A stretch of 64,000 nt of DNA from Diphasiastrum complanatum (Eukaryota > Streptophyta > Lycopodiopsida > Lycopodiales > Lycopodiaceae): positions 41,535,719 to 41,599,718 of the forward strand of contig CM055095.1 in assembly GCA_029204225.1 (NCBI GenBank), written 5' to 3'. Positions 5,229 through 64,000 of the stretch are shown here, one piece after another (the stretch's first letter is position 1; the number at the start of each line of letters is the position of its first letter). The notes under the pieces were generated by a model. That model was not told the origin of the DNA. It saw nothing but the letters and a program-made list of their open reading frames with translations, and searched no databases. Made by a program: the position numbers and the translations under genes.

Positions 5229-5607
5229 CATTAGGGGAGTTTTGAGCTCCAAAAAGACCCTTTAAGAATTCGTGCAAGATGTCTTTTATATTATTAAAAT
5301 ATTATGACACTAATATTTTTGACTTGCCATAAGTTTTTAATCATATCTCAGAAGTATGTCATGTAAGAAATCATTGGAAAGTCCTTGTTGAGCACTTTCC
5401 AATGTGCCAAACTTCGCTAAATTTGGACTTACCACTAAAAAGTTATGCCATTTTTAGTGTGGAATCAAAATGTGGACTCAAAAAGTTACGTTACGTAAAA
5501 TTCAAATTTGACTGTTTCGATTGGTCCATGTGTAAGAAAAATTTAAGAAAAAAATATAAAAAGAATATTTACAAAGGGTTTTTTTTGGATTTAGAACTCC
5601 TCTAATG
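5229..5607 (+). mobile_element. MITE, copy 1
   Basis: The ends are CATTAGGGGAGTT and AACTCCTCTAATG, near-perfect inverted repeats. The interior matches the segment at 24019-24395 in reverse orientation over its whole length. There is no coding capacity. The sequence is AT-rich and sits inside the gypsy-1 LTR. A short non-autonomous DNA transposon explains the terminal repeats and the second copy in unrelated sequence. I could not fix a target-site duplication. Confidence 0.8.
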
Positions 5608-15629: not shown

Positions 15630-16375
15630 TTTCATCTTGACCGACGCACAACTCCATTCTTGACCGAGGCTTCACACTCCTTTCCTAGCCGAGCTCCACG
15701 ACTCACGTCTGGACCGAACGAAATCTTGTTTCATTCACCTATTGAAACTACGCAATCACTCTCGACCGAACCACTACTCGCAATATTCTGTCAAGACCAA
15801 AGTTAAATCTCAACCGATGCTCATCGATCAGATCTCAACCGAGCCTTTACGTTGAAATCTCAACCGGAGCATCTGTTGAAATCTCAACCAGAGCCTCTTC
15901 TGAATTCTTGATCGGTGCTTTCTCTCAAAACTTGACTGACGCCTCCTATCAGATCTCAACCGACGCCTCCTCTCAGATCTCAACTGACGCCTCCTCTCAG
16001 ATCTCAACCGATGCCTCCTCTCAGATCTCGACCAAAGCTTCCTGTCAAATCTCGACCAGAGCTATCTCTTAGATCTCGACCGAAGCACCCTATCAGATCT
16101 CGACTGGAGCTTCCTGTCAGATCTTGACCGACGCTTCCTATCAAATCTCGACCGGAGCCTTCTCTCAGATCTTGACCGAAGCTTCCTGTCAAATCTCGAC
16201 CAGAGCTGTCTCTCAGATCTCGACCAGGGCACCCTGTCAGGTCCCAACCGGGGCTATCTCTCAGATCTCGACCGACGCCTCCTGTCAGATCTCAACCGGA
16301 GCTGTATCTCAGATCTCAACCGGACCTTTCTATTAATTCTCAACCGAGGATTTCTATCAATTCTCAACCGAGAGC
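15630..16375 (+). repeat. 24-bp tandem repeat array upstream of gypsy-3 gag
   Basis: The unit is of the type CAGATCTCRACCGACGCYTC plus four bases. It is regular with a 24-base period from about 15930 to 16345 and degenerate to the left. Being a multiple of three it leaves frames open: the plus strand encodes an eight-residue unit QISTDASS/QISTGAVS and the minus strand a complementary Arg/Asp/Leu-rich unit. It lies about 290 bp before gag, in the presumed leader, so translation is doubtful. Confidence 0.85.
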
Positions 16376-16661
16376 TTTGACTTCTAACCTGGACCTAGTC
16401 AACTTCCAATTAAATTCAACTATCTTCTTTGACTAAGTCTCAGTATTTACCAACTACCACAATTCTTTTCAACCTTATTGCAAAAACCCTAAAACCAAAA
16501 AAAAAAACAGCTGTGCCATTTGGACACCACCACATTATTAGTCTCTGACTAATATTTAAAAAAAAAAAAACAAAATCACAAAACAACAACACAAACACCA
16601 GTCAAATTACCAAAGAGTCCAAGAGGCCTATTTCCCAATCCTAAGGTACTCTAGAGCTGTT

Positions 16662-24018: not shown

Positions 24019-24395
24019 CATTAGAGGAGTTCTAAATCCAATAAAGACCCTTTGTAAAGATTCTTTTTATATTTTTTCTAAATTTTTTCTTCCATATGGA
24101 CCAATCAAAACACTCAAATTTGAAATCTATGTAACGTAACTATTTGAGTCCACATTTTGATTCCACACTAAAAATGGCATAAATTTTTAGTGGTAAGTCC
24201 AAATTTAACGAAGTTTGGTGCATTGGAAAGCGCTCAACAAGGGCTTTCCAATGATATGTTGGATGACATACTTTTGAGCTACATTTAAAAAGTTATGGCA
24301 AGTAAAATGTATTAGTGTTATAATATTTTAATAATATAAACTACATATTGCACGAATTCTTAAAGGTCTTTTTGGAGCTCAAAACTCCTCTAATG
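24019..24395 (-). mobile_element. MITE, copy 2
   Basis: Ends CATTAGAGGAGTT and AACTCCTCTAATG. The whole length matches the reverse complement of 5229-5607. The related copia-2 at about 36040 lacks the insertion, so it acts as an empty-site reference: ...CTTATTGGTG... there against ...CTTGTT, MITE, GGTG... here. This shows movement after copia-1 and copia-2 diverged. Confidence 0.85.
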
Positions 24396-36648: not shown

Positions 36649-36929
36649 GTGGAAGATTAGTCTAGGTGATAGGAATAACTATCAGTGACTTAAGTATGAA
36701 AATCTAACACTAAATTATAGAACAAGAAGACAATTACTCTATCAGCTAGTAGAGTCTTGTTACTGTGGAAGCTTATCAGGCTACAAAAATTGAAAAATGA
36801 AATTGTAGAAACTATTTTAATTAAAGTTCAATCATACTTGGATGCAAATGTGATATAAGGTGCATGTGATGTATCTGGAATTAGTAAAAATGCTTATTTT
36901 ACTTTTTTTAGAATAGTTTTTTTTTCCAA
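36649..36929. other. AT-rich spacer between copia-2 and gene A
   Basis: No gene, LTR end or primer site is visible. The junction between copia-2 and the A-B-C-D gene cluster must lie here. Confidence 0.4.
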
Positions 36930-38148
36930 GTGATGGTGAAGAAAATTTATCTTCCACGTCCATATCGGGTAAGATTAGCAAAAAATTATTATAATGACGG
37001 AGTGTTCAAAGTAGTTGGCCAACCACTTCATATAACCGAATTATACAAATCAGAATATGGTGAGTTCAATTACAACGCTTGCAATAATATTTTCTTTGAT
37101 ATTGAAAATGTTCTAAAATATATTATTCGATTGACGAACATCAAGTAAATGGAAAGATCATTATTGTAATAAAATTGGATGAATTTGAAATCATCAAGGA
37201 TCAAAAGTTGGAACGAGTGAGTGTCACTTTGATGAACAAAATTTCAGATACAGATGATCGAACGTTTAGTGTTCAATCGGAAAATCACATATGGTGGTTG
37301 GTGGCATTCCAGGTATACCTTTCAATTTTCATTTAGAATATCGTTATTAACAATTCATACCTTGCTAGTTTTTATTGACATGTCATGCATTACTTGCTTT
37401 TCTACAGGTCTTGAAAGAGGACCATAAAATACTTTCATGGATATTTTCAAGAAATTATGGCAAGATTATAAAGAGACATTTGGAGGGTGAGAAATTTACA
37501 GTCAAAAATCATTGAAGTTTTCAAATTCAATGGCACCTTGCAGGGGATTTGAAAACATTAAAATGTATGTATAATGTCTCTCAATAAGCCATCAATTGGA
37601 GGTGCTAAAGCAAGAAGATTCTTATCCAATCACACATGCAAAGAATCAAGTGTCAGATATGAAATTTGGAGAGAAATTGTTCAAGCCACACAAACACTGG
37701 AAGGAAGTAATCGAGTGGAAAAGGGACAAGTGTGGAACAACTTAGACAAACTCATAGGTGTTATCAGGAAAGAAAACCTATCATCAGAAGATATGAGGAC
37801 TTTGCAAAATCATTGCACCACATTTGTAAAATCTGTACATGATTGTTGGGAAAAAAACAATGGTACTCATTACATGGTGCTAATCTATATCTTTATCTGG
37901 TACTTTTCTCATTCAGACTTATATTTTTTTCTATTGATGTAACTAATCAAAACTATTGTTTGCAGCACATCCTTCTTCATCATGCAACTTATTTTGCAAA
38001 GGAATATGGAAGCTTAAGTATCTGGTCATCACAAGGCATGGAAAAATCTCATTGGCAAGTCAGTGGTTTTATAGAAGAGCACAATTTAGATATCAAGCTA
38101 AAAATTCGCCAAGTGTTACGATTTTTTGAAAGGCATTCAAATTCATAA
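36930..38148 (+). pseudogene. Gene A, unknown protein of the putative large element
   Basis: A multi-exon frame starting MVKKIYLPRPYRVRLAKNYY (36933). Possible introns run from GTATAC at about 37311 to TTTCTACAG at about 37408, and from GTGCTAA at about 37880 to TTTGCAG at about 37965. The last join gives THYMHILLHHATYFAKEYGS, then LSIWSSQGMEKSHWQ. I cannot name this family. The pattern GSL-x-x-W/F-S-x-Q-G-x-E-K-x-H/N is one I associate with uncharacterised proteins of eukaryotic repeats. Frame changes near 37135 and 37570 suggest decay. It converges on gene B, whose end is only 50 bp away. Confidence 0.45.
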
Positions 38149-38197: not shown

Positions 38198-39746
38198 TTA
38201 ATTATCATCATCATCCTCTTCAAGATTCAGACGGATGGTATTGTCATGAAGGAATAATTTCCTTTCATATGGATCCAAAAATTCTAAATTTTTTCTTTTG
38301 TTCATATCAATGTAATCCGAATAAAGGGCCATTGCAGATGATCTTTTTGTAGTCTCATTGAGAGTATAACCCAATATTTTAATAGCCAAATCTCTTTTCA
38401 CAAAAATTATTTTTTATGTTCCTCTTGTGTACTTATGGCCTCCTAAACAAACTGATAATGATTTGATGGCCATAATGACAGTGGTTGCATATGGATTAAA
38501 AGATGAATGATATATAAAAATCTCATTATTTTGAAAGTTTTTCAAATAATGAGATAGGGACACATCCTTTCTCCCGGCTGATACACCTCGGACGCCTCAA
38601 TGTCTCATACCAAAGGCATCTATTTCAATAGCATCCTGTAAATGAGTAAAGAAAATAAATTTAGAATGATACATAACACTGCAAACTCATACTTTAACAC
38701 AGTGTTTGAAATAAGAAAACTGAACAATATCAATACCAATATAATATCTACGTACCAGATCATAATCATCGTATTCAACGACATTTGCTCTGCTAATGTC
38801 ATGTCCTCCAATGGCCTCTACATTTTCGAAGGGGATATATCTAGGCCTTGGGGGATATTTTTTTTGGAATTTCAAGAATTCCTCCTCTGTAGGCAAAGTT
38901 TTTTCGTAGGCTTTAGATTTTTCAATCATGGCCTCCAAGGCCTCATTGCCAGATTTTCAATTGCCATCTTTATCATAATCTATCTCACTTTCAAAGTCAT
39001 CATATGTGTAATCAACAATGTCAAAAAATTCTGATAAATTTTGTGCAAAAATCGAGAGGATTTCATCCTCTCTCAAATTCAAAACATCTTCTATATCATT
39101 AAATGAAATGTAACTTTCATTATTTATAAAATATAAGGGAACATCGAGAAGAATTAATTGATGAAAAGGAGATGTAGATGGAAGAGAATCAGAGAGGATT
39201 ATAGGAACGAGGGAGAGTTTTTTGATAATTTGAAGCCATAGATGCTTCAGCTTCAACCCCTATATCAGTATCTGCATCAACTACATCAACTAGAGCAGAT
39301 GCAGATGTTTCAATCAAAGGAACAGTTGAAGATTCAACAGACTCATCATCTGGAATTTCAGCAGATATGTAAAAGACAAAAGCCATTCCTTTGATTAGAA
39401 GGAGACATATTCTTTTGTGGATACCACAATATATATTTCTTTTGAAATGGTCATACAAGTTAGAGTACTTTCTATTGTGTTTATGCTTAGAGGATGGTTG
39501 GGAATGCACAAGGTCTAAAAAATGAACGAAACAAAAACTATCTATATTCTGAACAGGAGTACTAATAATCTAAGAAAAAATATCAAGATAAGAAATTAAA
39601 TTATAATGATTCTCATAAACTAGCTTATCGATATCGAAGGGAGCACAAAAAATACTCAAAAAATACTCTAATTTTTCAGATGGAATGTCACTAGCATTCA
39701 AAAAATTCAGAAGTTTGTTATCTGAGGACATGGAGGAATTAGCCAT
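38198..39746 (-). pseudogene. Gene B, unknown protein of the putative large element (older copy)
   Basis: Start MANSSMSSDNKLLNFLNASD at 39746. An in-frame stop occurs near 39570, then LVHSQPSSKHKHNRKYSNLY and GMAFVFYISAEIPDDE. An acidic segment follows (DYTYDDFESEIDYDKDGN, about 39000), then RYIPFENVEAIGGHDISRAN. A likely intron starts GTACGTAG near 38756, and the last part is AIKILGYTLNETTKRSSAMA with an acidic end EEDDDDN. The homologue at 60700-61288 matches over the first third, including the block QPSxKxxH and GMAFVF-x-SA-x-IPD. The function is unknown. A minus-strand TATAAATA about 280 bp upstream (near 40028) is a plausible promoter. Confidence 0.55.
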
Positions 39747-40421
39747 ATTGAACTTGTTATTGGTTCAACGCGACTGAATGATTTTGGTCGAGGACTGAAC
39801 AATAGTGCCCGTGTTGATCCGATATTGTTAGGACGAGACTAAAATTTTCCGTGAGCACATGTTAGAAGAGGCTTATATTGCTTCAGCACGTCTGAATGAA
39901 TCCGACCATGCACTATATGTGAAGGCGCATGTCGATTCGATATCGCGAGAAAGAAAGAAAATAAAATGACGAGGGAGTTCCGAATAAAAGATCACGGAAT
40001 CGAAATAAAAGTGGTACCCATATTTATAGCCTATTCCTGTTGATCACAGCCATACATTTGTCAAATAATGAATTGAGGAGCACGAATCATCATTAGCCTT
40101 GACCCTAAAATTTGTACATGTGCTGGAATACATTATATAGTCTATCACTAGCCTCATCGAATCATCGTTAAACAAATAATAAACAAATGTTAAATGGACA
40201 TTATTGAAAAACGTGTACGAGGGCAATTATTACAGTCTCTTGCCCTATTTAAGCACCGTAAAGACAGAATTTTTCCTTTTGAGATAATGTTCATTCAGAA
40301 TATTTTCATAAGGTGGAGCATTTTGACATGGCTGATATCGATTCCACGCAAAAAGACAAGTGCTTCAGAGGAACAAATCAAATGGGCGCGCATTGATTCA
40401 ATACTCCCATATGGCGAATCA

Positions 40422-40907
40422 GATATCGGATCAGCGCGCCCGTCCCAAAAAAAAAAAATTTCAACTTGAACTACGCGCGTTGATTCGCTATTGGAATCCA
40501 TTATGAATCATCAAAACTTGCTTCGGGAGACTCTTCATACATCCAAAGCTTAAAAAAATCTGTCGAAGCAAGCTTTGATGGTTCATAATGCGTTCCAATA
40601 TATTTTCAGTGCATCTCATATATCAGGTCAGCGCGCTTGGTAGAAGAAAGTTATTTTTCACTTGGACTGCGCGCATCGAATCGCTATTGCAGGGAAAAAA
40701 AGATTTTTGGAATTGTCAAAATTATTGGACCCCATTATGCATGATCAAGGCTTGATTCGGTAGACTCTTCATACTATCCAAAGATATGCAAAATCTATCG
40801 AGTCAAGCTCTGGTCATTCATATTCCGTGCAATATTGGTTCAGCGTGGGAGAATAGCCCCTCTAGTTTACACATGCAGTATATGCGCGTCGATTTGTTAT
40901 TGGGTGA
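40422..40907. repeat. About 200-bp tandem repeat with an internal hairpin
   Basis: Units begin GATATCGGATCAGCGCGC at 40422, ATATCAGGTCAGCGCGC at 40619 and ATATTGGTTCAGCG at 40832 (partial). Each full unit contains a stem: 40504-40525 pairs with 40564-40585, and 40738-40759 pairs with 40799-40820, with loops sharing AGACTCTTCATAC. The units have diverged, but the stem pairing has mostly been kept. Confidence 0.8.
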
Positions 40908-41007
40908 AATAATGGTCGTTCAATCATTATAATCTCCAAAATTATAATGATTGGATATAAAAAAAGGTTAGATATTTATAGCTTAACCTTGTCAATTTCA
41001 ACAATAA

Positions 41008-41071
41008 ATTGTAGATGTGACCATACTTTTCTAGAATTAATTGTAGATGTGACCATACTTTTGTAGAAATT
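41008..41071. repeat. 32-bp tandem duplication
   Basis: ATTGTAGATGTGACCATACT recurs with a period of 32 bases at 41008 and 41040 in the upstream region of gene C. Confidence 0.85.
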
Positions 41072-41467
41072 ATTTGTGGTCGTTATTATTGACTAAGCAT
41101 TTTGATGAAAGATGGATATTAAGTTTGATTTGATTGACAAGCCTCTGAATATCTTGAAGTAATCATCAGCGTAATCCGAGACTCGGACATCCAAACCACC
41201 ACGTATGCAATCATTTTGGATTTTATCTATATATATAGATGGACGATGCTGAAATTTTTTTGCTTAAAGTTCGTATCGTTCTCTACTGCCATGCGGTATC
41301 GATTCAACGAGTCCGAAGCAACCTACCTACATTTCGCTTTTACTCGCGTGCACCCATCCGCTACCAGGCATCGGTTTGGTTAAGTTCAGGTATCAGTTCG
41401 ACGCGCTCGACCTGAATTCTGATCTTGAGTTCTCCTTCTTCACGTGCTGATCCGATATTGGATACTA

Positions 41468-42421
41468 ATGATGTGGACTAAGCAAATCGCACGAGTCCAC
41501 CCTGGTGGAATTCCAATCATAGGAGGGGGTCAGGGAAATGCACCACCACCGCCTCGCTCACCACCACCTCCTCCTAGGCCAAGGGGCAGACGAAGAGACC
41601 CACCCTAGGTCAAGGATATTTGGAAGCTACAGAAGACCAATAATCTTCTGATTCTGAAAGCTCACATACAGAGATCCATCAGACAAGTTACAAGAAGAAT
41701 TTTCCTCTCCTAATAAATCTCCTCCTCCTTCAAAATCTCAGTCTCCTCCTACCCCCAAAAATATTAGTTTCCCACCTCCTGTTTTAGGAAATGATGTAGA
41801 TGATTTTGTAAATATAAAGGCAAAATAAATTTTGAATGACAATTCTTTTTGTGGTTTATTTGTATTACTTCCTTCACCCCCTGCACTTGCCTTTGTAAAT
41901 ATTCCTCAATATGTACAGTATGACCATTGTTAAATACATATCTTAAAGCTTTAGGTCCTCGATACAGTTTTAAGATGCCGAAGACCAATGCTGGTTTTCT
42001 CCTTTCTAAATTAGATACTAGTGAATTAGAAAGTAGGGATAAAATGCTAGGGGACAATGTAGGAGGTGGGTCAATTCAGTACTGGATGGAGTTTTTCCAG
42101 ACCCCATTGTTTATAGATGTTGGCATTGTTTTCTCTTCAATTCATGGCTGCATTTGATTTCCCTGATTTCAAAAGTCTGCACGATGATATGCTCCAATAC
42201 GTCAGACTGGGGACTCCAATCCTCGTGCTCCCATACATAACAAAGTAAGGGTTTTTTTCAGATTTTATTAAATTGAATTTTTCATATGAATTTTGATTTC
42301 ACATTGGTTCTCATAAATTTATTGTTTTTTGATTGTAGTGATCATTGGAGCTTATATGTATTGTCCTTATATGTCAATGATGAGGGTTTGTGTTATCCAG
42401 TTTGTTTAAAGATGAACTCTA

Positions 42422-42512
<91 letters not shown>

Positions 42513-43108
42513 TGCCAGGAGCCATATCCAGAAAATACTGGAACTCTTTTCAGTGCCACATGCAATAGCATATAGGAAGCTGAAAATGATTGATGTAGAG
42601 GTGAAAATTTATCAATATCGGTTCGATGCGCCCTTGTAGTTATTGTTTCATTTCTTTTCATATCGTGCGTGCTGATCTGATATTCAAACAATATTTTTTG
42701 GATATCGTGCGCACTTGTTTCCGTTGTAGATTTTATTATAACCTCCTACACGTTGATCCGATATTTCTTAATGTTAAAATTTTGTTACTAACTTTCGTTT
42801 ATAGTGGATACTACAGTCCTCCCAACAGGTTGATTCTGTCAATTGTGGTTGGTATACGATATGCAATGCCAAACACTTTTTCATTTGGCCTGCACTACAA
42901 GATGAACTTCCTAATCTGGGAGAGGTAATCTTCAATTAATAACATTTAGTTGTGTTTTTGTTTTTTTTTCATAATCAAATTCCTAATAATGAATCTTTGA
43001 TTAATAACATTTAACTGTGTTTTTGTTTTTTTTCAGTTTAAATGCCCGAAGGTCTCCCCAATGAAGATAATGCACTTTAGGCAGGAGACCATAAGGCTTG
43101 TAATCTAA
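41468..43108 (+). pseudogene. Gene C, histone H3-Ulp1 protease fusion (older, inactivated copy)
   Basis: By comparison with 62133-63842 four exons can be placed: 41468-42244, 42339-42600, 42817-42924 and 43037-43108. The start MMWTKQIARVHPGG resembles the H3 tail MARTKQTARKSTGG. A Pro- and Arg-rich stretch follows, then a TAG at about 41609 exactly where the intact copy has Trp, then the H3 helix VKDIWKLQKTNNLLILKAHI. The rest of the histone fold is missing, and frameshifts follow to about 42170. The protease part is well kept: NDHWSLYVLSL, CLKMNSI and QQVDSVNCGWYTICNAKHFF. A CA microsatellite interrupts exon 2. It is adjacent and divergent to gene B. Confidence 0.85.
42423..42508. repeat. 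(CA)43 microsatellite inside gene C exon 2
   Basis: Forty-three CA units start three codons after the Asn of CLKMNSI and encode a His-Thr run in the protease domain. The intact homologue has ordinary sequence (KCTHAKMDV) at this point, so the run expanded from a short ACCCATGC-like seed. Flanking protease sequence resumes after it. Confidence 0.95.
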
Positions 43109-44028: not shown

Positions 44029-45222
44029 TCATATGGCATAATGTACCTTCACACCATTCAATCGAAATTGATAGTACTGAGGTAGATCGAATTGCAACAT
44101 ATCTAGCTCTAATCGAATGTGATTGAGACACCAATCTTCCTCGACCTCAACCATTGCAAGAATGTTGTCATTTCTTTTCACTGTTATCTGAAGTTGCTTT
44201 TGAGGGTTTATACCAAAATCTTGATTGGCTCTCAAACATTTTTGTATTTAATCCATCTTCTATAATACAACGGCAAAATGAGCATTTGTTTTTCGATGTG
44301 ATATCTAAATGTCATTGATGAGTAACATACTCTACACTCGACTTGCTGATTTTGTTTTGTATCCCAACCATCATCCAACAACTCGGTGATTATTTCAGCA
44401 CTCAAGTCCTTACAAATAAACATTGTTTTCGTTCTCTGAACATTGCATTTGGAAAAAAAATCAACAAAAATAGTAAAAGGTAGATACCAACTTAATCTAT
44501 TATTCTTTGATCCAATGCTCAATTTTAATATACTCTGAATATCAATATATAGCCTAGATAAAAAACTTTCTGAAATTGCTGCATCAGGAAAAATCCATTC
44601 CTCACTCAAAAAATCTGATAGAGGATATGGCTCTAATCTACCAACTAAACCATTTTTATCAGGAAAATAGGTGTGTTCATAAAAGAAAACTCTTGACTCT
44701 AAAAGTGATTATGGAGAACGACCTTTATATTTTAAAATACCGATACCCGAATGTATGACATCGATTATTCCTACAATCGATTGAACTGTTTGCCATTCAA
44801 CGAAATGTGATGGATACAAATCTACAAAACCAACAAAAACATCACAAGAAAAATATAATTTAAAGAAAATGCTAACTCTAAAGAAATTAAATCTGAAAAC
44901 TTACAATTGCATTTTCTTCTATCATTTGGATTCAAATCATGAATGTTGAGCTCATTGTGAAGATAAGCATGCTGAACTAAAACTTCCGTGATAGATTGAC
45001 CGGCAGGTGATACTTTGAAATCCATTATCTGCCTTTCCAAGAGCTTCTATATATGTTATCCGATCTTTTTCTTTTTCGAAATGAGCCTTTTGCAGAGGGA
45101 TGCATCAAGATCCATTGATATTTTCGATATATTCTTGGTATCCATTGATCTTTTGCATTTTTTTCATTGCAAATATTGATTGCATCAATGGTTCCTCTTG
45201 GTCTTCGATTATGTGTAGCCAT
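44029..45222 (-). pseudogene. Gene D, unknown protein with a possible ubiquitin-like domain
   Basis: Start MATHNRRPRGTIDAINICNE at 45222. After a frame change it runs to a good donor (GTAAGT at about 44905) with FKVSPAGQSITEVLVQHAYL. A second part from about 44820 reads YPSHFVEWQTVQSIVGIIDV, then an open segment 44609-44232 with SEEWIFPDAAISESFLSRLY and a CRVC pair. The C-terminal piece (44235-44029) reads LQITVKRNDNILAMVEVEED and LPQYYQFRLNGVKV, whose strand-helix-strand pattern looks like a beta-grasp (ubiquitin-like) fold. That is inference from pattern only. I do not recognise the protein. It is the outermost gene of the A-D cluster. Confidence 0.4.
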
Positions 45223-47988
45223 TAGTTGAAAATACGTGTACGCAAGCTGAGAACGGAGACAATGTAGAGATTGAGAGATAAACCTAAAAATGAGAATCCA
45301 AAATAAGAGATAGAATGTAGAAAATGAGAAGTATACTTATGAATGACAAGAAGTTCCTAAACTATTAGGATAAGTTAACTACAATTGACGTCAAATCAAC
45401 CTCGAGTGTACAATGACGGGTAGCATAAGAGTATTCGGGCGGTAACTGTGGTCCAATCACAATTGTTTGTTTTGCCCGGTGAGATATTTGAAAATCACAA
45501 AAATTTGGCCGGGAATTTCCGTCCGTCAACCACTGTTACAGTTCGTCACATATGGACACCATTCATTGGGACACATAAGCGTTGAAAGTGTGCAAAGTCA
45601 AAAACAGCATCTTGACAAAGAGCCCATTTTGAGTTCTAATATCTCCTAATGATTTTGAATAATTAGTTTACTATTTTAAGTTTTATTAAGCTTTTGATCA
45701 GCTTCATTCATTTTTGCCGTTCTGTGATATTATTTTATATAGTTTAATCTTTTTGTATGGTCATGGGTTTTCCCATTATTAAAATCATGGATAATAATTA
45801 TTATTAAAAGGCCAATGTACTACAAAGCAATTGGAAGTAAACATTACAACTTGCAAAGGGCCTATTAATAGGCACATGTGATTATTAGTTGAATCACAAT
45901 TTAATGCATTGGAAATGACTAATGCAATGCTTTGCAAAGATGAAAAAAGTCAAAATGGCAACTTGAAAAGGGAGATTGGTCTCAACCCCATAAAAGGAAA
46001 TGGACGTGTTGCATTTAGATGCTGTTTTTTTGTTCTCTCAATATATCGAAGTCTCTTGTCACTCTTTGTAAAAAGCTAACTTGCTGAAGTTCTCTCTTCT
46101 TCTCAAGAGTATGTTGAGGCTCTCTTTTGTTCTCAAGAGGGGCTGTGGATTCATTTGATCTCAAGAGTGTGATGAGTCTGTTTTGTTTTCAAGGCTGCCA
46201 TGCTGAGCTTTTAAAAAATGCTCCTCATATGGTCTCTTGTTAAGTGATAGCAGTTCTTAGTGCTTCTTCCTGATTCACAGATGGTACTCTTTTACAACTG
46301 AACCATTTTTCTGATCAGCTGTTCTTAGTTTGGTGTGAGTAATTGCATCTTTTTTTTGAAAGAATGTGAGAGATACTTTGAACAGAGAGCAGCAGCAAAG
46401 AAACCCCCTGTCCCGATGGAGTAACTCGTGGGAGGCCTTGGTGAATGTGAAGTGGAGCCTCCATGTGCTCCTTGAGAATGATGATGGTTCAAACAATTGG
46501 TGCCCCCCACATGCGCGGATCGGCAACTTAGCTCTCTCTCCCCATTGAGCTCAACCTGAGCGCAAAGGGACATTTTTGGACAAAATATTTTTGTTCTCGT
46601 CACTGGTTTTCTGTTTAGAAGGATCAAAGTATGAATGTAGCCCTCACTTAGGGAAATCACTCGTAGTTAAACAATGGATAGATGTTTTGTGAATGTGACT
46701 GGCATTTTTATCCCATGTGCTTAATTAATGTGTGCTAATCGCTAATAGTAGATGCATTGGTAGTAAGGCTACACAAGTAGTATGTAATCACGTTAAATCT
46801 TGTGTGAATTTGGTAACTAGAGTAAATGTCGTCTAGTTCGTTGACTTATACAAGTTTTGTATCTCTCCTCTTGGAATATAGAGAGAGGGCTAATGAGAAC
46901 CCGATGAGGCGGAATATCCTCCCGGGCCTAGGAAATTGAACACAATATTTCTGTTCTGATGACACACCTAGAGCACAATCCGTAGTGTGTTGTTGGAATA
47001 TACAGACATTGTGGATTCACGGGCCCTTGGAACCTAGGTCCACTCACTAGCATGAGCACGCTAGTTTAAGAGGAAATTGGGAAAAAATCGAAAAATCTTA
47101 ATCTTGAAAACCACAAGACCGATCAAAGATATGGTAATTGGAAGACTCCATTATCACTAGTCCCAACACGACACCATTATGACCTTCATCACCCACCCAT
47201 GTGGACACTTTACGTAATGTCATTAACTTTGATATTAAACGTCTGCCTCGATCCGATTCCATCCAGGGGATAAAAAAATCACATTTTGATGGAATTGACA
47301 TTGGGTCGAAAAATAGGCTTGGGTCGGAATAATTTGATCCTGAATTTTTCGATCCTCCGCTAAAATTTTGAGCCTCCATATTTTTGTGTAGGTTTTTTAG
47401 AATAAGTATGAACAGATTTCAGGATGCTCATTACCTAATGGAATTGGGCTTGAGCATGTATTCCAACATGGTAGATGTAGTATATGCAAGCCAGGGTGAG
47501 GACGAACTATTGGGCATGAACGAGCTATCGGGCCTCAGCTACTCGGGTGTGACTCGTTTTTAAACTATCACGATCCACCGCCGCCATGCAACGTTAACAT
47601 AAATGTACTTAAATGGATGCTTAACTTAAACTCAGCTAATCAATCTTGTAATTTAATCCAGCATAATATATGTATTGGATCATAGTCATTTACATAGACA
47701 TACACAGAGAAAATCCTAAACGCAACACTCAGTGAGGTGTGTATTAAGGAAGCAAGATAGATCTAGTGATAGATAGTTCGTTTCGTGAGAAGAGAACACC
47801 TCTATCATGCCGACGCGCTGATCTAGGAAATAATCAACGCTCAAGAAAGAAACCCTGTTGTAGACTTGATTCTGATAATATAGACGAGTATATCTTTTTC
47901 TGCTCAATGCGCAATCTGTGAATGTTGTGATGCTTGTTCAGTTTTACTAGTAGCTATATTTCCACTGTCATTAGATATTATCTGTTGT
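45223..47988. other. Long stretch without recognised genes
   Basis: Around 45840-46150 the sequence has features of a promoter or LTR: CCCATAAAAGG near 45988 and repeated GTTCTCAAGAG words near 46100-46190. A short minus-strand frame at 47098-47379 (MEAQNFSGGSKNSGSNYSDP) and one at 47716-47907 have no recognisable motif and I do not call them genes. The right end of the A-D element and the truncation point of copia-3 must lie here. Confidence 0.4.
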
Positions 47989-59689: not shown

Positions 59690-60699
59690 AATCAGGCAAA
59701 GGCAAACACCTTCAAGGCTCACTTATGATGAGAAAGGTAAGCAAGTTGTTGGTGGAACAAACTATGCCTTCCTAACCTCTTTTGATGAACCTACATGTGG
59801 ACATGAGGTAAGGCAAAAAGAGGAGTGGATCCAAGCAATGGACCTTGAGTATCAAGCTCTTATGAAGAACAACACATGGAGATTGGCGGAACTTCCAGAG
59901 GATAAGAAAGCTATTGGACGCAAGTGGATCTTAAAGGTGAAGAAAAGCCAAGATGGAAATCAACAGACATAAAGCAAGGTTGGTGGCCAAGGGATATCAA
60001 GAACATGGTATTGACTATGATGAGACCTTTGCACCCATGGCAAAGATGGTAAGCATTTGGGTCATCATCTCTCTTGCTACTCTATTTGGTTGGGATCTAT
60101 GGCAATTGGATATCATGACTAATGCATTCTTGAATGGTGATCTTGAGGACAAAATTTACATGGAGCAATTCAAGGGCTACATCTCACATGAAAAGCCAAA
60201 TCATATTTGTTATTGCAAAAGAGTTTGTATGGTCTTAAGAAAGCTCCAAGGAGTTGATTCGGACTTTGCTGGAGATCAAATGGATAGGAAGTCCATTAGT
60301 GCACATTTTATTTTCATAGGTGATGGAGCTATCTCTTGGATGTCAAAGAAACAAGCTACAATCTCATTGTCAACTAGTGAGGCCAAGTATAAAGCACTTA
60401 CATCTTGTGCAAAGGAGATGCTATGGATCAAGAGGATGGTAAGTGATCTTCACTTGTTGGATTTTTCAGAGAGTCCAATCATCTTTTGTGACAACATTTC
60501 AGCCCAAAGATTGGCAAGCAATCCTATCTTTCATTCAAGGAGCAAGCATATTGAGGTAGCATATCATTTTGTGAGGAAACAAGTCATGGCAAAGGAGGTG
60601 GAGCTTCAACATGTTTCTTCAAAAGAATGTGTGGCTGATATCTTCACCAAAGCACTTGAATTAGACTTGTTTACAAATCATAGAACATCACTTGGTGTC
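59690..60699 (+). pseudogene. copia-6 RT start fused to RNase H by deletion
   Basis: RT begins near 59815 (EEWIQAMDLEYQALMKNNTW, AIGRKWILKVKKSQDG) and, after a frame change, ARLVAKGYQEHGIDYDETFA and QLDIMTNAFLNGDLEDKIYM. At about 60254 it jumps from RT (the LKKLQG position) to RNase H (VDSDFAGDQMDRKSISAHFI), so the YVDD region is lost. RNase H then reads SLSTSEAKYKALTSCAKEML, IFCDNISAQRLASNPIFHSR and CVADIFTKALE. The frame runs without a stop across the element end at about 60699 into antisense gene B sequence, giving a chimeric open frame to 61014. Confidence 0.85.
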
Positions 60700-61288
60700 A
60701 GGGTTCTGCTCTGGTCAATCTCGCTCGCGGTAGATAACAGAGAACGAGCCATGGCAGGATCATATTGTTTAGCTTGCCTGGCCTCCTCTACATCTCCTAA
60801 AATCTCATCAATAATGGAAACCTCTGAAGCCACACGAGTGGTAAGGGCAGACAAACCAATCATGGACGACCCAGAAGATTCTGCCTCATCAGGAATAAGA
60901 GCTGATAAGAAAAACACGAAGGCCATACCCTCCTCAATGAAGCGACATACTCGATTGTGTTCCTCACAGGGTATGACATGTTTAAACAGATCAATAAGTT
61001 TGATAAACTTATGATCATGCCTTTGCTTGGCACTTGGCTGAGCATGAGCCAAATCTGTGAAATGCCAAATCTCAGGCCGTCCATCAGAAGGGTACCCTGT
61101 TGCAAGCACTCATAAAAATCCTTGTACAATTTAGGAAAAATTTATCTGTGCTTACTAACAAATCTCTCTATGTCAGGCTGAAAATCGAAATAGGACAAAA
61201 AATGGGCCTGTCTGTCGCTAACCTCAACATCAACTAGGAAAGAACTAAGAGCTTTATCATAGATCAAACTAGCAGACGAGGAGGCCAT
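60700..61288 (-). pseudogene. Gene B, second copy, truncated by copia-6
   Basis: Start MASSSASLIYDKALSSFLVD at 61288, a stop at about 61145, then after a frame change LAHAQPSAKQRHDHKFIKLI, FKHVIPCEEHNRVCRFIEEG and GMAFVFFLSALIPDEA. It matches the first third of gene B at 39746 (QPSxKxxH, HxRxC, GMAFVF). Similarity ends at about 60700, where copia-6 RNase H abuts, so the C-terminal two thirds are absent. No known domain is recognised. A minus-strand TATATATA at about 61519 lies some 235 bp upstream of the start, as in the other copy. Confidence 0.65.
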
Positions 61289-62132
61289 ATCAATATGATG
61301 CACCAGTTAGCAAGGGGACATAAACGAGGTAAGCGCGGGCGCGTGATGGCGATATGCACTGTACGCGAATCCGAATATCGGGACCACGTGCCAGGGAATC
61401 AGTGCAACTATGGATGTCTTTGCTGGGCGCATGGTAGCGATATTGTACAAACAGATATGGAGCGGGCCAGTGAATTGGACTCAATATGCGAAACTAAATT
61501 ACAGAAATGACACTCATATATATAGTCTAATACAGGGCATCTGAACCGTACACGTGTCTCAGTAATGTGCAGTCAAAATTGCCATGTGTGGAAACGACGG
61601 CGAAATCATTTTGAATGACACATGTACACTTCGGATTCTGACATGCGTCCTCGCACGTGCATGCCAACTGTACTATCGTATGCCCCAATCGTCTTCTGAC
61701 GCGTGTGTGGTCCAGATGTTGCCACGTGTCCTCGCACGTGCATGCCAGCCGTCTGATTGTACGAACCGCTGATATCCTAACACGTGACGGATGCGTGTGA
61801 CCACACATGTGACCACACATGCGGGGAGTGGAGGTGTTACATCGAACGTGCGAATATGATGAGACATTCTACAGGTATAAAAGGACGTTTTCGGGTCTTA
61901 TTTTAGTTTCTTAATTCTTCATTCTCTGGCTCTCCTTAGTTTCCTTCGCTCACTTCCACTCCCCGTTAGATGCATATCTCTACCACGTGCCAAAGGACCC
62001 ACATACCAGTATAGCTGGCCTGCCCGCACGTCGTGGCGATACGCCATTGCTCATATCGCCATCATGCACCTCCCATGTCGAATACCTGCTTTCCCTGCTC
62101 GTTGGTGCGTCATATCGATATCCTACCCTGCA
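61289..62132. promoter_or_regulatory. Divergent promoter between genes B and C, rich in CACGTG
   Basis: Seven CACGTG palindromes occur at 61385, 61551, 61654, 61723, 61735, 61781 and 61984. CACGTG is the plant G-box core, bound by bZIP and bHLH factors. A 20-base word GTCCTCGCACGTGCATGCCA is present twice, at 61647 and 61728. TATAAAAG at 61876 points to gene C about 257 bp downstream, and TATATATA at about 61519 points to gene B on the other strand. Confidence 0.7.
61876..61883 (+). promoter_or_regulatory. TATA box of gene C
   Basis: TATAAAAG in the context ACAGGTATAAAAGGACG, 257 bp upstream of the MARTKQ start. The older copy has CTATATATATAG at about 41228, 240 bp upstream of its start, so the spacing is conserved. 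Confidence 0.6.
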
Positions 62133-63842
62133 ATGGCCCGTACCAAGCAGATAGCCCACCTTACCACATTTACCCCACCTCCTCGCCCTCCTCTACAAAG
62201 GACAGTGAGCACTGGTAGGAAAGTAGGTCAGCCCAGAAGACCATGGTTAAGGGATATCAGGAGACTTCAGAGGACCATGAATCTTCTGATTCCCCGTGCT
62301 CCTTTCTACAGGTCTGTGAGACTGGTAACAAGGTCCCTCTCACATGATGTTTGGTGGAACATAACAGCGCTGGAAGCCCTCCCTACTGCCTATGAGGACT
62401 TCCAAGTCAAATTCTTTGAGGACTCCACGCTTTGTACAGTGCACGCTAAGAGGGTTACCTTCATGCCTCAGGACATGCATCTTGTCATGAGGCTGAGGAG
62501 TGCATACGATCAAGTCTTTAAAAGTGGCTTCACTTCTAGGACACCACCTACAGAGAGAGGTCTTGTTCCTCAACGAAGAAGGAAGCAGACCAAGCCCACC
62601 AGGCCTGCCAAGCAAAGGGTGGTACTCAGCGAGTCACCATCCCCCCCTCACATCTCTCATCCTTTGGTTGGACCATCACACCAATCTGCAGTGCTTTCTT
62701 CTCCTCCCACCACCCCTAACTATTCAAGTAGTTTCTCTTCCATTCCCTCCATTCCATCCCACAATAACGAGGATATGAACTCGACTGTAGATAAAATAAT
62801 ATCGGATCTAGATTTAAGTTTAATAGGTGGATTTTATAAGGATCTTTGTGTAAGATTTCTTGTTGATCCCAAAGATTCATTTTTGGATTTTGAGAGGTAT
62901 ATAATTTTTGATGAGTATGTTGCCAAAGAAATTGACAAGCTAGGAGGTCAGTTTTCTTTTTGTCTAAGTTCAATCAATTATATAAATCACATAAATAAAG
63001 ACTTTTGTGATGCCTTGAAGGAGAAGACCTCAGATATATCAGTTCCAATTGTGGAGGCTGGTTTGATGTATTTTGTAAATAGATGTCAATGCGATGATAC
63101 TAAGGACATTGGAGTTGTGCTGTCCTTTTTTGCACACAACCTTCATAGTCCAACTAAGGCGACGAAGTATCTTCTCCATACAAACTCGGAAACCAAAGTC
63201 TTTATTATTCCATACTGCCAAAAGTAAGTGATTACATAGAATATATTCTAGTAATATTTTTAATAGGTATTGTAATTCTTTTAGTTTAACTAATTATCTC
63301 TTGTCTGCAGTAAGCATTGGAGTATGCATATAATCTCCCTTAGGGAAGATTCAGATGGGATCATTAATCCCATCTGTTTAAAGATGAACTCCTTAAAGTG
63401 TACCCATGCTAAAATGGACGTGATGTACAACATAATGTTGCCATTTTTGCCAAGGCCGGATGGGGCCACTATAAATAGCCAACTGGAGATTGTTGATGCA
63501 GAAGTAAGTATTTCTCATCAAGTATTTGATAGGTAATATGATCTGTTTTTTTCAGAGCACAACTAACCTATTATACATTTTGTGATTGAAGTCAGCTCAG
63601 CAAGAGGATGGACATAGCTGTGGATGGTTCTCCATCCGCAATGTACAGGACTTTTTAGAGTGGTACATCATGCAATCCAGGGCTCCAGATGTACGAATGG
63701 TAAATAGACTAGTGAATGGCCTAACTAAGTTATTTTCGATTTGGTTTTTGATAAGTCAATTGACTCGGTTCTTTTGGATTTGCAGCATAAATGTCAAGCA
63801 TTTTCAATGAATGAGATATATGATATATACAGATGTTGGTGA
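62133..63842 (+). CDS. Gene C, histone H3-Ulp1 (C48) protease fusion, intact
   Basis: Exons by GT/AG sites and comparison with the older copy: 62133-63223, 63311-63503, 63592-63699, 63786-63842, giving 482 codons without a stop. Residues 1-127 are H3-like: MARTKQ start, a Pro/Arg-rich tail without the usual Lys9 and Lys27 contexts, then a gapless match to the H3 core (RDIRRLQRTMNLLIPRAPFY; FFEDSTLCTVHAKRVTFMPQ; loop 1 of canonical length). Residues 128-225 are a basic, Pro/Ser-rich linker. The C-terminal part is a Ulp1-type cysteine protease: His366 in NKHWSMHIISL, Asn390 in ICLKMNSL where Asp is usual, Gln432 and Cys438 in QQEDGHSCGWFSIRNV. Ulp1 proteases remove SUMO or related tags. I infer a chromatin-targeted deSUMOylase or element protein. 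The ATG at 62064 is in frame, but 62133 matches H3 and has a good context. Confidence 0.88.
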
Positions 63843-64000
63843 ACTTATTATCTCATGCAACACCCAATCCAGCTGTGGAAACGGGAGGCCAATCAAGTCC
63901 ACAACTGACACTAGTGCAGGGTGGAGATAATCCATACTACTTTGAGCTGTAAATAATAGATTAAATAGAGATATACATTTTTGATGTAATGCCCTGTGAA
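63843..64000. other. 3' flank of gene C
   Basis: No second gene is visible before the window ends. An AATAGATTAAATAG stretch at about 63955 may be part of the 3' UTR. If this locus mirrors the older one, a minus-strand gene D homologue should lie within a few kilobases beyond the edge. Confidence 0.3.

Follow-up and report, generated by a model that had tools for sequence, protein, structure and literature searches.

Introduction

Plant transposons commonly capture genes, according to the available part of PMC13317346, and the systems that are closest to the locus reported here are elements that carry either an Ulp1-type protease domain or a histone H3. As described in the accessible portions of PMC5735166 and PMC10398659, the VANC proteins, which are encoded by VANDAL and non-TIR MULE transposons of Arabidopsis, bind noncoding motifs that are reiterated within the VANDAL elements and remove silent marks, and the proteins and their motifs have diverged together; the VANC genes that carry an Ulp1 domain are named KIU in the accessible text of PMC13317346. 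In the Ginger1 transposases, where Ulp1 or OTU domains occur, a role of these domains in transposition and repair has been proposed, as stated in the accessible part of PMC2836005. In fungi, the consulted portion of PMC6710886 reports that hAT transposons captured H3 in Dothideomycetes, with 784 H3-like copies in P. fijiensis. As far as these texts extend, both the capture of H3 by transposons (PMC6710886) and the presence of Ulp1 in transposons (PMC2836005) are already known. Concerning the silencing that such elements face, the accessible text of PMC10398659 states that, in plants, regions that carry H3K9 methylation receive non-CG methylation through the CMT enzymes.

Here, we describe a gene of Diphasiastrum complanatum that encodes a histone H3 domain fused to an Ulp1-type (C48) domain, located in a stretch of 64,000 nucleotides that we refer to as the window. 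The fusion, with K4 of the histone tail kept and K9 lost, is what we report as new. An earlier note on this DNA had proposed the fusion; the second copy of the element, the paired motifs, the replacement of K9 and the ends of the element go beyond it.

Results

The H3-Ulp1 gene

The H3-Ulp1 gene is located on the forward strand of the window at 62133-63842 and consists of four exons, separated by GT..AG introns, that amount to 482 codons with zero internal stops. Exon 1 (62133..63223) encodes the H3 domain, the linker and the first half of the Ulp1 domain, exon 2 (63311..63503) contains the HW and MNS motifs, exon 3 (63592..63699) contains QQ and SCGW, and exon 4 (63786..63842) includes the stop codon. 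The H3 domain (residues 1-125, 62133..62507) starts with ARTKQ and has a leucine at the K9 position; the Ulp1/C48 domain (residues 213-482 after splicing, 62769..63842) is recognised by Pfam and profile matches. A TATA-box-like sequence, TATAAAAGG, can be read on the same strand at 61876..61884. The intact four-exon gene of the earlier note is confirmed by this analysis, both Pfam domains lying above their curated cut-offs, as is the presence of all the motifs that it listed (FFED, LC, HAKRVT, MPxD, HW, QQ and SCGW).

The gene belongs to copy B of an element that also occurs in the window as a decayed copy A, and the fusion is present with the same exon layout in three clades, A, B and C; by reading, its three intron positions are found again in copy A and in a clade-C copy. 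In copy B, a single open frame of 448 codons spans the H3 domain, the linker and half of the Ulp domain, and the same span is also open in a clade-C copy. That the two halves come from separate genes, a possibility that the earlier note had itself raised, or that the gene model is wrong, we regard as having next to no probability against this background: because the frame of exon 1 is continuous and the linker is under purifying selection (see below), H3-Ulp1 is a real single-gene fusion on a transposon-like element. In one clade-C fusion copy (L057, C13:31267540-31268439), the second exon carries an in-frame TAG at its end, and the copy is, for this reason, probably not intact.

The H3 half

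The Pfam family Histone (PF00125) matches residues 22-122 above its curated cut-off (E 9.5e-21), and the sequence matches to H3 chains of the PDB cover the protein from residue 1 (MARTKQ) to residue 123, with a best E of 4.2e-21. Residues 39-123 align with positions 48-132 of H3 without a gap, 40 of the 85 residues being identical to H3.3, and the N-terminal tail is shorter than that of H3 by about 10 residues, as seen from the gaps in the PDB matches; the earlier statement that the first 127 residues align without a gap holds for the core and is too strong for the tail, since the shortened tail aligns with gaps. CENH3 has a longer loop 1, and a CENH3 origin of the domain was set aside, the core being gap-free against H3.3 and without the additional residues that loop 1 has in CENH3. 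In the predicted fold, helices occur at the places of H3 αN, α1, α2 and α3, at a low mean pLDDT (50 and 54); the three best Foldseek matches are nucleosome H3 chains (probability 0.98-0.99, TM 0.40-0.42, rmsd 11-12), with E values of 0.0012-0.0029, none of them at or below 0.001. Because of the low pLDDT and of these Foldseek values, the model lends weak support to a histone fold.

The tail was read in 34 rows of the main group, 32 of which are readable at the K9 position, where leucine occurs in 31 copies, isoleucine in one and lysine in none. K4 is a lysine in 31/31 and T3 a threonine in 30/30 readable copies, and the tail of copies such as c2, c5 and c7 is MARTKQTARL. Other tail residues are variable, with R2 kept in 21/29, A7 in 18/31 and R8 in 19/31, a variation that is in part as expected of C-to-T or G-to-A change. 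Copy A, which was read separately, has a valine at the K9 position, and the tails of two clade-C copies are ARTKQTTRPKS and ARTKQIARPKS, where a proline is inserted before the lysine. The A-R-K-S motif around K9 is found neither in the 32 readable main-group copies nor in clade C, where RPKS takes its place; the site has therefore been disrupted in two different ways, by leucine or isoleucine in the main group and by the proline in clade C.

The residues that we take to form the H3-H3' interface are mostly kept: C110 in 28/32, H113 in 31/32, R116 in 30/31, D123 in 28/32 and L126 in 31/32 copies, with alanine at C110 in clade C. Changes that prevail in the main group are K122 to Gln (25/32), R63 to Pro (29/33) and K56 to Arg (31/33). 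Given the kept H3-H3' contacts, the entry of the protein into nucleosomes or H3 chaperone complexes, as the earlier note suggested, is made more plausible, as far as residues can tell.

The Ulp1/C48 half

The family Peptidase_C48 (PF02902) matches residues 348-457 above its curated cut-off, with an E of 2.3e-5 in the whole protein and of 4.1e-6 when the Ulp part is scanned alone; among six scanned rows, it is matched in three only (two of them short pieces). A PDB search with the single sequence of the Ulp part reaches Ulp1 at E 0.3, and a search with an alignment profile finds SENP2 as the best match (6.2e-5), together with other SUMO proteases.

From the listing of readable copies, the catalytic histidine (of HW) is kept in 25/29, the glutamine in 25/28 and the cysteine in 28/29. 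The position of the expected catalytic aspartate, which is assigned by reading of the alignment where HMMER leaves a gap, is occupied by asparagine (MNS) in 27/28 copies, and likewise in copy A and in clade C; a His-Asp-Cys triad plus Gln is accordingly not what these copies carry, with Asn in place of Asp. The domain may be either an active variant of the triad or a binding-only domain.

The replaced K9 and the asparagine bear on a reading in which H3-Ulp1 is a decoy, its ARTKQTARL-type tail occupying H3K9 methyltransferases, readers or chaperones and its C48 half serving only as a SUMO-binding scaffold. Lys-to-Met mutants of H3 can inhibit methyltransferases, and both the leucine or isoleucine at K9 in 32/32 readable main-group copies and the asparagine at the aspartate position are in keeping with such a decoy, which we nevertheless hold to be distinctly improbable: the catalytic histidine (25/29) and cysteine (28/29) have been kept, and clade C retains the lysine after its inserted proline.

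The element family and its copies

In a search of the 1.745 Gb genome, the H3 part has at least 150 matches (every candidate that was scored, out of 6729 in the first look) and the Ulp part at least 328 (from 143 scored among 8394 candidates). When the 70 best-listed of the 150 H3 rows are taken, 36 have an Ulp match on the same strand 0-3 kb downstream, in 15 cases with 216 bp between the two; the pairing used 96 Ulp rows, nearly all best-listed and four picked near H3 rows, and as these were drawn from a list with an upper limit, the remaining 34 H3 rows are no evidence of Ulp loss. When canonical H3 is used for the search, 13 host H3 loci are found at 93% and a partial one at 92%, along with more than 100 other, divergent H3-like loci, most of which show 39-54% identity. 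One of these (L055, C10:2473057-2474456) has H3 alone and stops at the H3 end without Ulp1, so that other H3-bearing repeat families seem to be present in the genome.

Ten copies, picked for open frames or for divergence, were compared together with copy B over about 20 kb each. Copy c8 extends over 9064 bp between the imperfect inverted termini CATTAGAGGAGTTACAAACATC... and ...CTTCTAAGTTTGAGAAC..TAATG, the ends of the element being CATTA...TAATG. When at most 3 mismatches are allowed, the genome contains 324 left termini (164+160) and 226 right termini (117+109), and the reversed-pattern controls for both occur 0 times. H3-Ulp1 is one gene of a DNA-transposon-like family that has several genes and terminal inverted repeats; the transposon context that the earlier note had supposed is that of a repeated family with inverted termini. 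No clear target-site duplication is seen in the five copies with both ends (c4, c5, c8, one copy on C12 and one on C8), the best shared flanking string being 3-4 nt in c4, c5 and c8; in four other copies, the right end is located outside the stretch examined. In a Pfam scan of ten ORFs of c4 and of ten pieces of sequence around copies A and B, no family lies above cut-off, although remote relatives would be missed, and the largest gene 1 ORF of c4 has no credible match in the PDB. In c5 (L021/L022), about 2.9 kb in the middle of the element have the opposite orientation to that in c1 and c4.

Copy B (60698..64000, forward strand) is 5'-truncated, lacks gene 1 and is 92% identical to the full-length c8; it begins at 60698 next to Copia-like sequence, and its right end is located beyond the window at C4:41601550 of the genome. 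Its gene 2 (60698..61288, reverse strand), of no known family, starts with MASSSASL and is cut at the Copia-like junction. Copy A, the decayed sister element at about 36.8-45.65 kb, has the gene order of the full-length copies: a remnant of gene 1 (36799..38067, forward), which is the largest gene of the element and a transposase candidate, gene 2 (38243..39746, reverse; start MANSSMSSDN), a divergent promoter (39755..41460), the decayed H3-Ulp1 (41471..43100 with an approximate end, forward; start MWTKQIA) with stops and frameshifts, and gene 4 (44104..45144, reverse), of no known family, followed by a candidate right end, CTCCTAATG, at 45643..45651, identified by reading. The fusion protein matches copy A in order and on one strand, with one H3 piece (E 8e-4) and two Ulp pieces (2e-5 and 4e-4); the αN-α1 segment of H3 is kept, α2-α3 is deleted, and the Ulp exons follow. 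Gene 2 is common to both copies, with 42% identity over 108 residues.

Further features of the window are a long (CA)n run at 42423-42508, which lies within the Ulp exon that has decayed in copy A, where the protein has MNSxxTH, and two inverted repeats of about 355 bp (5252-5607 and 24019-24373), 88-95% alike and ending in CATTAGAGGAGTTC, which are probably the ends of related elements and resemble the H3-Ulp1 element termini. A 24-bp tandem array at 15805-16377 has a frame that reads as LSDLDRS-like repeats, and an ORF on the reverse strand at 85-510 resembles, judging by eye, a fragment of a serine carboxypeptidase. Rfam and tRNA scans of the window found none.

Paired motifs at the divergent promoter

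A motif of 19 bp recurs as inverted pairs in the noncoding DNA of the element. In copy B, four pairs, all at an offset of 54 bp, are located at 61285..61357 (overlapping the start codon of gene 2), 61373..61445, 61972..62044 and 62051..62123, the last one ending 9 bp before the ATG of H3-Ulp1. Copy A has nine pairs (seven at 54 bp, one at 53 and one at 55), eight of which are located in the divergent promoter, at offsets of 53-55, and the ninth (42613..42685) in intron 2 of the decayed gene. In both copies, pairs abut or overlap the start codons of both divergent genes, and in clade C they abut the start codon of H3-Ulp1.

Copy A has 24 matches to the motif (shuffle mean 1.3; 6 in 51.9 kb elsewhere), and copy B, scanned with its own variant, has 13 (shuffle mean 1.6; 14 elsewhere), counts that are partly circular, as the matrices were trained on the same sites. 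The matrix trained on A recovers 3/4 pairs in B when the threshold is 2 or 3 and one when it is 4, with zero pairs in 51.6 kb of other window sequence; the matrix trained on B recovers 4, 3 and 2 of the 8 pairs in the promoter of A (1, 0 and 0 elsewhere). A matrix whose training was restricted to A and B locates five pairs (53, 53, 53, 54 and 54 bp) within 1160 bp upstream of the gene in clade C, where 500 shuffles average 0.002 and never exceed 1. Over 11 related copies, 36/45 pair calls are at 54 bp; the pairs of c10 are offset by 50 and 55. The motif is GCGCGTCGATCCGATATTG in clade A, GCGCGTGGTGGCGATATGC in clade B and roughly TCGCGTGCCTGCGATATTG in clade C: its sequence differs between the clades, and the spacing of the pairs hardly does.

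The spacers within pairs are unrelated (30% identity), and the two arms of a pair are no more alike than arms of different pairs (p 0.98 in A and 0.45 in B). On folding as RNA, 5/13 pairs, among them three of the four in B, beat their shuffles at z <= -2.2, so that a role as RNA is conceivable; an RNA-hairpin reading of the pairs would not be general.

The location of the pairs is also relevant to a possible role in transposition, where the H3 half would dock on DNA or nucleosomes and the protease would regulate the transposase or repair factors. Such a role has a precedent in the one proposed for Ulp1/OTU of Ginger1 (PMC2836005, accessible part), and in both copy A and copy c8 H3-Ulp1 is accompanied by the remaining genes of the element; yet the pairs are found at the divergent promoter, with one more in an intron, instead of at the inverted ends, and the loss of K9 is left unexplained, so that we consider this role rather unlikely.

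Selection and decay

Against c10, a member of a diverged subfamily, dN/dS is 0.13 for the H3 core, 0.18 for the linker, 0.17 for Ulp exon 1 and 0.39 for Ulp exons 2-4 in copy B, and 0.12, 0.22, 0.15 and 0.31, respectively, in c5; pN reached pS in 0/2000 bootstraps in each of the eight tests. Against L050 and c9, the H3 core again gives 0/2000, counts for the linker and Ulp exon 1 range from 0 to 29 per 2000, and significance is not reached by the last Ulp exons (460/2000 and 203/2000). Between subfamilies, both halves and the linker are under purifying selection (dN/dS 0.12-0.39). Within young pairs, the values are noisy, which is expected if insertions drift: 1.0 for the H3 core and 0.32-0.43 for Ulp between B and c5, and 0.28 and 0.22-0.99 between B and c8. 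Since the copies are many and purifying selection has acted on them, the fusion is more than a chance arrangement.

Stops occur within the aligned codons of 19/26 near-complete copies, and a few of them, such as the only one of c5, may reflect intron read-through. These stops, together with the frequent gene capture by plant transposons (PMC13317346, accessible part), would suit captured H3 and Ulp1 pieces that hitch-hike without function, a passive cargo that has, in our judgement, a small probability, in view of the purifying selection between subfamilies and the conservation of introns and catalytic motifs in three clades.

The substitutions in exon 1 were examined over all ordered pairs of 26 copies, pairs that are not independent. 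C-to-T change amounts to 0.141 at CTG and 0.092 at CAG, both CHG contexts, against 0.025 at CTA, 0.039 at CAA, 0.049 at CTT and 0.033 at CAT, all CHH, and change of CG to TG/CA amounts to 0.246 against 0.162 for GC to GT/AC. This pattern of decay fits past CG and CHG methylation of the copies.

Comparison with described systems

A search of 5.8 billion proteins with the full-length protein gave 3 matches (E<=0.01) that extend over 16-23% of its length and have the Histone domain only or an unrelated domain; with the Ulp part, nothing reached E<=1, and gene 2 had no match. Since these searches scored only candidates preselected by shared words and length, the absence of relatives is weak evidence. 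Neither viral contigs nor plasmids contained relatives. In agreement with the earlier note, which knew of no such protein, an H3-Ulp1 fusion was found neither in the protein databases nor in the literature searched, the latter mostly outside subscription journals.

H3-Ulp1 resembles VANC/KIU, as far as the consulted texts describe them, in being encoded by the element, in the Ulp1 domain that KIU also carries, and in the short reiterated noncoding motifs that differ between related families, which in clades A, B and C are candidate sites that occur paired and inverted. It differs in that its element has inverted termini, H3 replaces the VANC part, and the motifs form inverted pairs at about 54 bp, whereas those of VANC form arrays of the same orientation; in addition, neither a MULE transposase nor a VANC-type domain was found by Pfam in the ten ORFs of c4 and the ten pieces near A and B. 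By the features tested, H3-Ulp1 is not a member of the VANC/KIU family.

With the fungal hAT elements, it shares an H3 that has been amplified by a transposon into many copies, whereas the accessible part of PMC6710886 describes no Ulp1 fusion and states that most copies there were inactivated by RIP; the same Pfam scan detected no hAT transposase domain, and no hAT-type 8-bp target duplication is clear in the five copies with both ends. With Ginger1, it shares an Ulp1 protease domain within a DNA transposon; according to the consulted text of PMC2836005, this domain is there the C-terminus of an integrase-like transposase, whereas the domain reported here is joined to H3 in a gene of its own, and no integrase family was found in those twenty ORFs and pieces. 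Compared with the H3 of the host and its variants, the histone-fold region, the ARTKQ start and the H3-H3' contact residues are shared, while K9 is absent, the tail is shortened, a protease follows at the C-terminus and the copies are many.

Discussion

The interpretation that we favour, and to which we give an even chance, is that H3-Ulp1 acts on the chromatin of its own element against silencing by the host, in a manner similar to VANC/KIU; if so, the two would work alike. A role against silencing becomes more plausible through the loss of K9, the CHG-type decay and the paired promoter motif. In such a mechanism, a complex encoded by the element, containing H3-Ulp1 or the product of gene 2, would read the inverted 19-bp pairs, whose span of 73 bp and dyad would suit a complex of two-fold symmetry. 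The H3 half would pair with host H4, bringing in a tail with a K4 end that is unmethylatable at K9 and that would locally weaken the loop between H3K9me2 and CHG methylation, and the C48 half would remove SUMO or a SUMO-like modifier from the silencing factors or element proteins bound there.

This interpretation is favoured by the intact ORF with both domains, by the presence of the fusion in three clades under purifying selection, by the lack of lysine at K9 in 32 copies, by the excess of C-to-T change at CHG over CHH, by the pairs and by the precedent of VANC/KIU. Against it stand the asparagine at the catalytic aspartate in 27/28 copies, the non-significant last Ulp exons against L050 and c9, the better-than-shuffled RNA folding of 5/13 pairs, which leaves room for a role as RNA, and, for the likeness to VANC/KIU, the single orientation of the VANC motifs as opposed to the inverted pairs of H3-Ulp1.

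A bolder version, which we put forward as a long shot, is that the element specifies part of its own nucleosomes, a K9-unmethylatable H3 joined to a de-SUMOylase being deposited on the dyad-symmetric 73-bp promoter sites. If true, this would perhaps be a particle of (H3-H4)2 size and a self-specified, silencing-proof chromatin, with the sequence of the site and the protein diverging together between clades, and it would be categorically new.

The near-constant geometry of the pairs in three clades, with a changing motif sequence, makes the co-divergence of protein and DNA testable. The defeat of chromatin silencing by transposons is known in few cases; if the role against silencing is true, an element histone that keeps K4 and lacks K9, joined to a domain similar to SUMO proteases, would be a direct attack on the loop between H3K9 methylation and DNA methylation, and H3-Ulp1 would be a possible tool for local de-silencing.
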